A DNA stretch of 64,000 bases from the NCBI RefSeq assembly GCF_004102025.1, contig NZ_CP025228.1:1116001-1180000 (forward strand), given 5' to 3'. The DNA comes from Actinomyces qiguomingii (GTDB taxonomy: Bacteria; Actinomycetota; Actinomycetes; Actinomycetales; Actinomycetaceae). Below the pieces are notes generated by a model. That model saw only the letters and a program-made list of their open reading frames with translations. It had not been told where the DNA came from and made no database searches. The translations under genes and the position numbers were made by a program. This document shows positions 5,936 through 9,437 of the stretch, piece by piece. How positions within the stretch are numbered: position 1 is the stretch's first letter; each line of letters opens with the position of its first letter.

Positions 5936-6511
5936 TCAGATGTAGATGGTCGGGTCGAGCATGAGCTCGGGGTCGGTACGCGGGTCGCGGGCACGGGCCG
6001 GTACGCCCACGCCCACATGATCCGCGGGCAGGTTCTTCACCAGGACGGCGTTGGCGCCGATCTTGGCGCCGTCCTCAACGGTTACCGGCCCCAGCACCTT
6101 GGCGCCGGCCCCGATCTGCACATTATTGCCGATGGTGGGGTGCCGCTTGCCGGGATTCATGGAGACTCCACCCAGCGTGACGCCGTGGAACATGAGCACG
6201 TCATTACCCACCTCGGCGGTCTCCCCGATCACCACCCCCATGCCGTGGTCGATGAAGAAGCGCTCACCGATCTTCGCGGCCGGGTGGATCTCAATGCCCG
6301 TGGCTGCACGGGCCGCCTGCGACAGGGCACGCGCAGCGAAATGGTGGCCGCGGCCCCACAGGGCGTGGGCCGCTCGGTGCGCCCACAGTGCGTGGACCCC
6401 GGGGTACAGGAGGGCCACCTCAAGGATCGAGCGGGCCGCCGGGTCCCGCCGTCGGGCGGTCGCCAGATCCTCCTTGGCGAGTTCGATGAACGACCGGCTT
6501 GACTTGTGCAT
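5936..6511 (-). CDS. cysE: Serine O-acetyltransferase
   Basis: A 191-aa enzyme that acetylates L-serine with acetyl-CoA to O-acetylserine, the substrate of the adjacent cysK product. The left-handed parallel beta-helix hexapeptide repeats are clear: [46 protein letters not shown]. The catalytic His/Asp region (FFIDHGMG) and the [12 protein letters not shown] loop are present. This is the short CysE form common in Actinobacteria and Firmicutes. The start was set at the ATG preceded by AGGAG 5 nt away; a longer in-frame extension lacks support. It lies 270 bp downstream of cysK on the same strand, so the two probably share the attenuator-controlled transcript. Confidence 0.95.
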
Positions 6512-6781
6512 GGTGCTCCTATGACAAAAGCCTGATGGTGGGGTGGACAACAGACGCAGATATCGGGGGTGGAGCACGCCGGCAGCGCCGCGAAGGGCCT
6601 GTGACCTGCGATGATCCGTTCTGGCAACGTCGGTGTTCGCATCCCTGTTCCAGGTCTGGTGCCACCGACGCCCGACTGTGTCCGAATCCACTGTGGGATA
6701 TGAGCGAGGGAGGGGCGGTGGGTGACCGCGCCGTCTGCGGCCGCCCACCGCCTACCGGTTCAGTACTCAGTCCTTAGGTGC

Positions 6782-7711
6782 TCAGTTCAGGTAGTCCGCG
6801 TACAACGGCGTCGACAGGTAGCGCTCACCGGTGTCCGGCAGGACAGTGACGATGGTCTTGCCCGCGAACTCCGGGCGTTGCGCGAGCTGTGAGGCGGCGG
6901 CCAGAGCAGCGCCGGAGGAGACTCCCACCAGGAGGCCCTCCTCGGCGGCGGCGCGGCGGGCGTAGGTAAGAGCAGTGTCGGAGTCGATGTGCAGCAGCTC
7001 GTCCCAGATGGACTGGTCCAGCACCTCGGGGACCACGTTGGGGCCGATACCCTGGATCTTGTGCGGTGCGGCCTTGCCCTCGCTGAGCAGAGGGGACTCG
7101 GTGGGCTCCACGCCGAAGATCTTCACGGCGGGGAGCTGCTCGCGCAGAATCTGTCCAACGCCGGTCAGGGTGCCGCCGGTGCCGATGCCGGCGACGAATA
7201 CGTCGAGCTGGGAGTCGGTGGCCTCCAGGATCTCCCGGGCAGTGGTCTCGCGGTGGATCTGGGGGTTGGCTGGGTTGGTGAACTGGGAAGCGAGTATGGA
7301 GTTCGGCGTGACGGCCTGAATCTCCTCGGCGCGCTTGACCGCGCCGGCGACCCCACCCTCGGTGGTGAGCACCAGTTCGGCGCCAAAGGCGCGCATGATG
7401 GCGCGGCGCTCCTTGGACATGGTTTCCGGCATGGTGATGATCACCCGGTAGCCGAGCGCGGCGCCGACCATGGCCAGGCCGACGCCGGTGTTGCCGGAGG
7501 TGGCCTCAATGATGGTGCCTCCGGGTTTTAGATCGCCGGAGGCTTCGGCCGCGCGGACGATGGACAGGGAGATGCGGTCCTTGACGCTGCCGGCAGGCTC
7601 GAAGGCCTCGACCTTGGCCAGAACAGTTGCGGGTGCGCCGTCGGTGACCCTGTTGATGCGGACCAGTGGAGTGGAGCCGACGAGTTCGGTGATGTTGGCT
7701 GCGTACGCCAT
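6782..7711 (-). CDS. cysK: Cysteine synthase A (O-acetylserine sulfhydrylase)
   Basis: A 309-aa PLP enzyme that forms L-cysteine from O-acetylserine and sulfide. The Schiff-base lysine is in PAGSVKDR (K44), the substrate-binding loop is TSGNTG (71-76), and the phosphate-binding loop is GTGGT (about 177-181). Length and motifs fit CysK rather than CysM or cystathionine beta-synthase, as there is no C-terminal CBS domain. The ATG has AAGGA upstream. A 250-nt leader encoding a short cysteine-rich peptide precedes it, which suggests control by cysteine supply. cysE follows downstream. Confidence 0.96.
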   Translation of the reverse strand: MAYAANITELVGSTPLVRINRVTDGAPATVLAKVEAFEPAGSVKDRISLSIVRAAEASGDLKPGGTIIEATSGNTGVGLAMVGAALGYRVIITMPETMSKERRAIMRAFGAELVLTTEGGVAGAVKRAEEIQAVTPNSILASQFTNPANPQIHRETTAREILEATDSQLDVFVAGIGTGGTLTGVGQILREQLPAVKIFGVEPTESPLLSEGKAAPHKIQGIGPNVVPEVLDQSIWDELLHIDSDTALTYARRAAAEEGLLVGVSSGAALAAASQLAQRPEFAGKTIVTVLPDTGERYLSTPLYADYLN

Positions 7712-7830
7712 TGCGGAATCCTTAAGTCTTGTGAAGGCGGAGTACAGTCGCGCCGATCCGGCGCTTACGAGGTCTGTACGCCCGCGGCCTGGAGATCGTT
7801 TGAGTAGTTCTTGGGGATCGAATCGGGGGA

Positions 7831-7902
7831 GGGGCGTTAAGGATGCCCCGAGCGCCAGGCATGCACGCAGCTATGCGTGCACAGTTTCATGGCCAGGCGC
7901 TC
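7831..7902 (-). promoter_or_regulatory. Putative cysteine-responsive attenuator hairpins before cysK
   Basis: In the cysK leader RNA the 7-nt GAGCGCC directly after the leader-peptide stop pairs with GGCGCTC further down, and GGC/GCC extends the stem beyond one mismatch. A perfect 8-bp hairpin (TGCACGCA/TGCGTGCA) lies inside it. A third stem, GGGGC/GCCCC, follows immediately. A ribosome stalled on the cysteine codons would cover the first arm. The structures are seen by inspection; the mechanism is inferred. Confidence 0.5.
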
Positions 7903-7958
7903 TATCGACACCGGCAGCAGCAGGAGAACATCACGCGCATGACGCCGTTGACCGTCAT
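7902..7958 (-). CDS. Cysteine-rich leader peptide (18 aa) of the cysK-cysE operon
   Basis: A short reading frame with a strong ribosome binding site (GAGGAGGA, 4 nt before ATG) encodes MTVNGVMRVMFSCCCRCR. Four of the last six residues are cysteine, including three in a row. It lies about 190 nt upstream of cysK on the same strand. Cysteine-rich leader peptides that sense cysteine through ribosome stalling are known from other actinobacteria. Its position before a cysteine synthase gene and the hairpins that begin at its stop codon make the same role likely here. Confidence 0.75.
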   Translation of the reverse strand: MTVNGVMRVMFSCCCRCR

Positions 7959-8102
7959 GGGGTCCTCCTCGGTTGCGGTGCTGCTGAAGCTTGCGGGGAA
8001 TCGCCGACGCTTGTGGCGGCGTCCTCCGCTGAGACGACATTAGCGTGTGCGGCGGCACCGCTGTCAAATGTTCCGTATGGTGAGTTGCACTGCATGAATG
8101 CG

Positions 8103-9240: not shown

Positions 9241-9311
9241 GCGGGTGTAGCTCAATGGTAGAGCCTCTGCCTTCCAAGCAGATGGCGCGGGTTCGATTCC
9301 CGTCACCCGCT
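9241..9311 (+). tRNA. tRNA-Gly (TCC)
   Basis: A complete cloverleaf: acceptor arms GCGGGTG/CACCCGC, D-loop TAGCTCAATGGTAGAG, anticodon loop CTTCCAA with TCC, and T-loop GGTTCGATTCC. No CCA is encoded; the discriminator base is T. Confidence 0.95.
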
Positions 9312-9363: not shown

Positions 9364-9437
9364 CGGGGTGTGGCGCAGCTTGGTAGCGCGCCTGCTTTGG
9401 GTGCAGGAGATCGTGGGTTCAAATCCCGCCACCCCGA
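9364..9437 (+). tRNA. tRNA-Pro (TGG)
   Basis: Acceptor arms CGGGGTG/CACCCCG with discriminator A, D-loop GGCGCAGCTTGGTAGCGC, anticodon loop TTTGGGT with TGG, T-loop GGTTCAAATCC. It follows tRNA-Gly by 52 bp and is likely co-transcribed. Confidence 0.95.

Follow-up and report, generated by a model that had tools for sequence, protein, structure and literature searches.

Genomic context and features of the cysK leader

The leader described here is located on the minus strand of the window (by which we mean the whole stretch of Actinomyces qiguomingii DNA analyzed, 64,000 nt), between yigZ (8828-8103; matched by the YigZ model with a score under the curated cut-off) and cysK (7711-6782). The genome is represented by a single contig of 3.99 Mb, and its cysK shares 92% identity with the Actinomyces ruminicola gene. 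Two tRNA genes (9241-9311 and 9364-9437, plus strand) lie upstream of yigZ. The features of the leader and of the two genes that it precedes are the following:

8062..8067, minus strand: -35-like TTGACA, 19 nt ahead of the -10-like element
8037..8042, minus strand: -10-like TAATGT
7964..7970, minus strand: leader Shine-Dalgarno GAGGAGG, 5 nt ahead of the ATG (at 7958)
7902..7958, minus strand: leader ORF, 18 codons, MTVNGVMRVMFSCCCRCR, stop TAG at 7904-7902
7898..7910, minus strand: 13-nt block TGT-CGA-TAG-AGCG (last Cys codon, one codon, stop, start of the P1 5' arm)
7893..7902, minus strand: 5' arm of hairpin P1, its first base being the G of TAG
7861..7882, minus strand: inner 9-bp hairpin in the P1 loop
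7850..7859, minus strand: 3' arm of P1
7831..7849, minus strand: 5-bp hairpin GGGGC/GCCCC 3' of P1, without a U-tract
7712..7849, minus strand: spacer to cysK (C 51 and G 32 of 138 nt), candidate Rho loading region
6782..7711, minus strand: cysK, cysteine synthase A (NCBIfam TIGR01139, 420.6 bits vs a cut-off of 350.95)
5936..6748, minus strand: cysE, serine O-acetyltransferase (NCBIfam TIGR01172, 231.1 bits vs a cut-off of 210.65), start uncertain (GTG 6748 or further in)

A first-pass annotation of this DNA had described an 18-codon Cys-rich frame with a strong ribosome binding site ahead of cysK-cysE, and the sequence agrees on both counts (Shine-Dalgarno GAGGAGG; frame MTVNGVMRVMFSCCCRCR), the 3' end of the ORF being TGC TGC TGC CGG TGT CGA TAG. 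The -35/-10-like pair places a predicted transcription start upstream of this ORF. The same arrangement, TTGACA-N19-TAnnGT, is also present in the close relatives L002, L116 and L117 (L and G numbers denote loci and genomes, respectively); a consensus scan that allowed a spacing of 16-18 nt only called no promoter.

The stem of seven plus three pairs that was said to open at the leader stop codon was found exactly so. Positions 7902-7896 pair with 7850-7856 (7 bp), followed by a T-T mismatch and 3 bp more. The 91-nt P1 piece folds at -43 kcal/mol (z -4.93, equaled by none of 200 shuffles), and the folding of the whole 276-nt leader is weaker (z -1.99, equaled by 6 of 200). As to the two more hairpins reported to follow, the 5-bp one (7849-7831) does come after P1, whereas the 9-bp one (7882-7861) is contained within its loop. 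By visual inspection, an equivalent of the inner hairpin can be recognized in the Actinomyces relatives while the loops of other genera differ, and the 5-bp hairpin is not general in the cysK-leader family among the loci listed.

Distribution of the leader among related genomes

All eight named Actinomyces relatives among the 80 best CysK loci (L002-L008, L013) carry the Cys leader together with the hairpin, so that a related cysK leader devoid of Cys codons, named beforehand as the observation that would count against the initial reading, was not encountered among them. Besides Actinomyces, Georgenia, Demequina, and Cellulomonas with its relatives, two more families of the order have leader and P1 before cysK, and the design of TAG followed by [A/G]GCG is seen also in Cellulomonas, Actinotalea, Demequina, Georgenia, Isoptericola and other relatives. 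It is absent before cysK of Agromyces, Leifsonia, Janibacter and many others (among the best 80 named loci of at least 559 in the CysK genome search). The Cys leader of cysK-cysE noticed in one Actinomyces-like organism is real but not a single case; it belongs to an order-level family.

A covariance model of P1 matched at least 91 of 396 genomes of the order and at least 69 of 200 genomes of the family (E 0.01); these tallies, obtained with stricter filters, are lower bounds, and G400 (L223), for example, carries the element and was missed. Of the same-genus genomes among those listed, 35 out of 37 match by the model and 36 out of 37 by eye. We examined 136 of the 149 model matches (leaving out G103, G131, G225, G247, G384, G393, G408, G411, G416, G429, G459, G474 and G489), and cysK was located downstream on the same strand in 122 of them. 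The other 14, which would have placed the element before genes other than cysK, are all weak (E 1.8e-4 to 0.01) and were taken as chance. Outside the order, a search of 394 genomes of the class (E 0.001) gave only the genome of the window itself, G008 (of the same order) and G653. The latter was rejected as an out-of-order member: the matched stretch has no cysK within its 3.1 kb and is probably a chance match.

A further 24 family genomes that the model had not matched were inspected, and 23 of them gave a cysK. Seven of these 23 loci (L220, L222, L223, L225, L227, L229, L231) carry a Cys ORF in which TGT lies at the stop codon or beside it, and in the remaining 16 the scan revealed no leader within 330 nt. 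The region upstream of cysK in the same-genus G546 (L221) has no recognizable leader or P1. Several variants of the design were observed. In L214, L220 (same-genus G556) and L227 a TGA directly follows TGT, ahead of a P1-like hairpin; as read from the sequence, the register in these three is shifted by one codon. The leaders of four Cellulosimicrobium loci (L018, L020, L048, L062) end in TGT-CGC-TGA, and that of Oerskovia flava (L022) in TGC-CGC-TAG, i.e. with TGC at -2; no P1 was detected in these five. In L137 and L180, TGT is present and TAG is missing.

Register of the leader ORF and the invariant TGT codon

From 202 cysK loci, 136 deduplicated candidates were obtained, 124 of which had at least two Cys codons and eight pairs in a scan not requiring TGT. 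Exclusion of L016 (an unrelated chance match) and L214 (shifted register) left 122 loci (equal only by coincidence to the number of cysK-linked model matches), and L216 was also dropped for the spacer analyses (121 loci). The 122 loci share a common design, in which a Cys-containing ORF ends with TGT-CNN-TAG (or close), the G of TAG opens P1, and a C-rich spacer follows. In an alignment of 24 sequences TGTC, TAG and GCG are invariant.

Codon -2 is TGT, and the stop is TAG, in 122 out of 122 deduplicated loci, most of which came from a model that had been built on TGTCNNTAG sequences and hence favors the motif. Since this model had learnt TGT, a fair test is provided by the 28 of these 122 loci gathered by CysK protein search alone (with no RNA model), and TGT occupies codon -2 in all 28. 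The same holds for the five model-missed loci with one codon between the last Cys codon and the stop (L222, L223, L225, L229 and L231). Cys at codon -3 is TGC in 35 cases out of 35, codon -4 is TGC in 57 and TGT in 35, and the other Cys codons among the last eight are 226 TGC and 76 TGT. As background, the long ORFs of these loci use TGT for 20% of their Cys codons (295 out of 1468). For the last codon of the leader, CGN and CTN predominate, with CAN, CCN and some other codons also occurring, so that the amino acid is not what is constrained at this position.

The alignment of relatives, proposed at the outset as a check, showed that Cys codons near the stop are kept while the peptide otherwise drifts in sequence and in length. 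Leader lengths range from 8 to 51 codons with 24 distinct values (the start being chosen automatically), and in all but one of the 122 loci (121) the open frame includes a start codon. When the best start was chosen and the other two frames were treated alike, AGGAGG was matched at 4-6 of 6 positions in 108 of the 121 leaders with a start, as compared to 30 of 244 for the other frames.

One tRNA-Cys is expected to read both UGU and UGC; the invariant UGU is for this reason unexplained by tRNA charging. A universal pairing partner for UGUC (GACA and its wobble forms) was considered and rejected on the counts in 101 similarity-thinned loci, given here with the numbers expected: 99 vs 99.0 in the 5'UTR, 70 vs 64.8 in the leader, 71 (of 98) vs 63.0 in the loop and 95 vs 85.5 in the spacer. 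GACA itself occurs in 20 P1 loops (8.6 expected), by eye mostly those of Actinomyces.

Conservation and covariation of P1

In the 24-sequence alignment, 94.6% of P1 cells are paired vs 87.0% after shuffling and at most 44.2% when the partner was slid, 19 cells are altered on both sides (7.4 in shuffles), and none of 500 shuffles equaled the covariation score. Three of the ten pairs are invariant, and further pair types are no more numerous than in shuffles (10 vs 9.5; 224 of 500 shuffles). When 50 distinct arm pairs were compared, 8 out of 10 positions had at least two Watson-Crick types. As the 3' arms were picked for complementarity, pair counts lean to pairing; the control is provided by shuffled regions, where a helix of at least seven contiguous pairs from the stop-codon G was formed in 136 of 1220 (mononucleotide shuffles), vs 118 of 122 genuine loci.

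The C-rich spacer

Spacers of the family contain on average 42.8% C and 25.7% G, with C exceeding G in 121 out of 121 loci. Their mean skew (+0.27) compares with -0.01 in 108 control upstream intergenic regions and with +0.05 at 37 cysK loci without a leader. From this leaderless group 14 loci were omitted because their leaders were partial, doubtful or lacked P1; the group contains a few members of other phyla, and its upstream DNA may not be transcribed. A C-rich, G-poor composition is that of Rho loading sites, and a Rho RNA-binding domain is encoded in the genome. The C-richness can also mean only an unstructured 5'UTR. No excess folding was found in the spacer across the 121 loci. Some spacers are only 38-50 nt in length, in which a Rho site could hardly be accommodated without a contribution from P1 or its loop.

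The motif GGNAT-N17-19-GTT is present in 34 of 121 spacers (e.g. L033, L045, L066, L082 and L139) vs 0.23 expected from mononucleotide shuffles, and its strict GGAAT form in 15 of 121 vs 0.04; as read, these spacers belong mostly to Demequina and some to Actinotalea. We take the motif to be close to the consensus of thiol-stress sigma factors of the SigR/SigH type. It is a possible second promoter, which would bypass the attenuator in disulfide stress. A GGAAT-N18-GTT is also seen 100 nt upstream of an Agromyces cysK lacking a Cys leader (L009).

Proposed mechanism

Two marks are present at this locus: a short Cys-rich ORF upstream of cysK, as in leader-peptide attenuators in the broad sense, and a C-rich, G-poor region after that ORF, as in Rho-dependent, ribosome-coupled attenuators. 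In tna-type Rho attenuation, translation of a uORF is linked to Rho-dependent termination. The Cys-rich ORF ending at a hairpin before cysK is very probably a ribosome-based cysteine-supply switch, and we are confident in its assignment as a cysteine-sensing attenuator. The involvement of Rho as its effector appears to us slightly short of an even prospect. Overall, we favor, with reservations, a model based on the sequence evidence, in which cysK-cysE would be controlled by a cysteine-responsive leader-peptide attenuator with P1 as the sole conserved switch and Rho-dependent termination as the off state.

According to this model, the promoter before the leader would give rise to an mRNA in which a strong Shine-Dalgarno drives translation of the first ORF, and the supply of charged tRNA-Cys would be reported by where the ribosome stands on the final leader codons. 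With cysteine present, the ribosome would reach UAG, cover the 5' arm of P1 and depart. When cysteine is short, it would wait on the Cys codons, the last of which is the UGU two codons before the stop, and cysteine starvation would presumably induce the genes downstream. The state of P1 would then determine whether RNA polymerase proceeds into cysK: P1, whether fully formed or partly opened when a ribosome occupies UGU, may alter Rho access or RNA polymerase pausing, and in the off state transcription would be terminated by Rho within the spacer. A Rho-dependent off state is proposed because P1 is the only conserved structure found and the spacer is C-rich and G-poor, and it is favored because no other effector is visible.

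Counting from the first base of the codon in the A site, the footprint of a ribosome usually reaches ~13 nt. A ribosome at UGU -2 would accordingly reach the fifth pair of P1, one at -4 or further upstream would leave P1 free, and one at the stop would cover the whole 5' arm. The first-pass claim that a ribosome stalled on the Cys codons blocks the stem is by this measure borne out for codon -2, from where about the lower five pairs would be covered, but not for the Cys codons -6, -5 and -4. With UGU in the A site the 13-nt block UGUCNNUAGAGCG would lie inside the ribosome, which would make UGU -2 a natural sensor codon. P1 would form both on an early stall and after release, and therefore the on/off sign is not deducible from the sequence. 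A tentative and rather unlikely variant is a single-hairpin attenuator, in which a ribosome at the invariant UGU would reach into the stop-codon hairpin and, with no alternative structure involved, the change in the hairpin would act directly on Rho or RNA polymerase. If this variant is true, the fixed UGU makes codon identity, beyond the amino acid, a part of the sensor.

Alternative mechanisms

Translation attenuation of the M. smegmatis polycysteine sORF type, where the mRNA would hide the cysK ribosome binding site and a ribosome on the Cys codons would free it, is in our view improbable. The downstream Shine-Dalgarno is reportedly sequestered in the mycobacterial system; here sequestration is unsupported on average. 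In the window, ATCCTTAA (7844-7837, minus strand) can pair with TTAAGGAT (7725-7718, minus strand) over the cysK Shine-Dalgarno (8 bp), and this pairing is included in the fold of 7848-7700 but omitted from the whole-leader fold, and the relative L002 has no stretch matching it. In 61 of the 121 loci (every second), complementarity to the cysK Shine-Dalgarno is at shuffle level (mean z of -0.05 in the leader, -0.21 in the P1 loop and +0.09 in the spacer), and its accessibility is 0.502 vs 0.506 with shuffled upstream sequence (61 loci). On the other hand, z values below -2 were obtained for the leader, P1 loop and spacer at 7%, 13% and 8% of loci, respectively, where 2-3% are expected, and no other segment accounts for as much of the predicted pairing as the leader ORF (0.247). 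On the averages in these 61 loci sequestration was rejected, individual loci with strong pairing being slightly in excess. In its favor, such a mechanism is reported for mycobacterial cys operons (Canestrari 2020, via PMC13236596 and PMC9031893).

Classical terminator/antiterminator attenuation, with P1 as the pause (1:2) hairpin, is still less probable. It is in agreement with a run of regulatory codons and a hairpin at the leader stop codon, and in A. oris-type and some Demequina spacers a second hairpin can be seen by eye soon after P1, but this second hairpin differs from genus to genus. The window leader contains no terminator-like site and no intrinsic terminator with a U-run before cysK. 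Across 121 loci, no conserved antiterminator pairing was found for the 3' arm of P1, whose pairing with the spacer is no better than in shuffles (mean z +0.40, with z below -1.5 in 4% of loci). The attenuator of the first-pass annotation, if taken as a classical one, is accordingly not supported: a U-tract terminator is missing, the P1 3' arm shows no preference for a downstream partner, and by the above footprint a ribosome stalled on most of the Cys codons would be too distant to block P1.

It is very improbable that P1 is mainly an RNA-stability or protein-binding element with the Cys content of the leader being secondary: the conservation of TGTCNNTAG[A/G]GCG as sequence, beyond pairing alone, would fit such a role, but the register of P1 is tied to the reading frame (TGT as codon -2, TAG as stop), Shine-Dalgarno and frame are maintained while leader length varies, further Cys codons accumulate immediately upstream of TGT, genuine P1 matches sit before cysK, and TGT stays at -2 in L222, L225, L229 and L231, where the P1 sequence has diverged.

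Comparison with known systems

The favored model, a cysteine-responsive attenuator with a Rho-dependent off state, poses a sharp question, namely why one wobble base (UGU, not UGC) is kept in 122 out of 122 leaders though the same tRNA is expected to read both, and also whether a lone stop-codon hairpin can switch Rho. The element itself was not recognized, by titles and abstract openings, among the papers listed in literature searches, in which subscription journals are thinly covered. A search with Rfam 15 at gathering score yielded only tRNAs in the window and in ten related loci, and one unrelated weak match when extended to E 10. Cys leader attenuators as such are known; the architecture predicted here appears to differ from those described so far in Rfam 15 and the literature searched.

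In E. coli, translation of the toiL uORF of topAI is linked to Rho-dependent termination (PMC12121999). This uORF-Rho link is shared with our proposal, while toiL is described as sensing antibiotics and acting by uncovering the topAI ribosome-binding site. The uORFC-8-2 motif found before cysS in Rhodobacterales (PMC8632094) resembles the present element in combining a conserved structured RNA with a uORF containing Cys codons. As described there, it has a U run consistent with an intrinsic terminator, its Cys codons are inside the first stem, and UGC is dominant. In contrast, the element described here has no terminator, its hairpin comes after the stop, and UGU is fixed at -2.

Cysteine-responsive attenuation by polycysteine leaderless sORFs is reported for M. 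smegmatis (Canestrari 2020, cited in PMC13236596 and PMC9031893). As in our leader, a Cys-codon tract in a short ORF is described to control downstream cysteine genes via ribosome pausing. The mycobacterial sORFs are leaderless, whereas the one studied here is led by a Shine-Dalgarno, with promoter-like sequence upstream and a transcription start that is predicted.

A close precedent is the work of Seliverstov 2005 (PMC1262725), which predicted Cys leader peptides before cys operons of Mycobacterium and Propionibacterium acnes and also before cbs of Bifidobacterium longum; in the searched text of that paper, Actinomyces is named once, in the genome list only. Like the present leader, those are presented as short ORFs with Cys codons near the stop and no obvious terminator, with Rho as one suggested possibility. 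The mycobacterial leaders are characterized there as being without a conserved terminator-capable hairpin, whereas in our case a stop-codon hairpin and TGT-CNN-TAG are present across several families. The Cys leader peptides predicted in Actinobacteria since 2005 thereby gain a defined and searchable architecture across several families.
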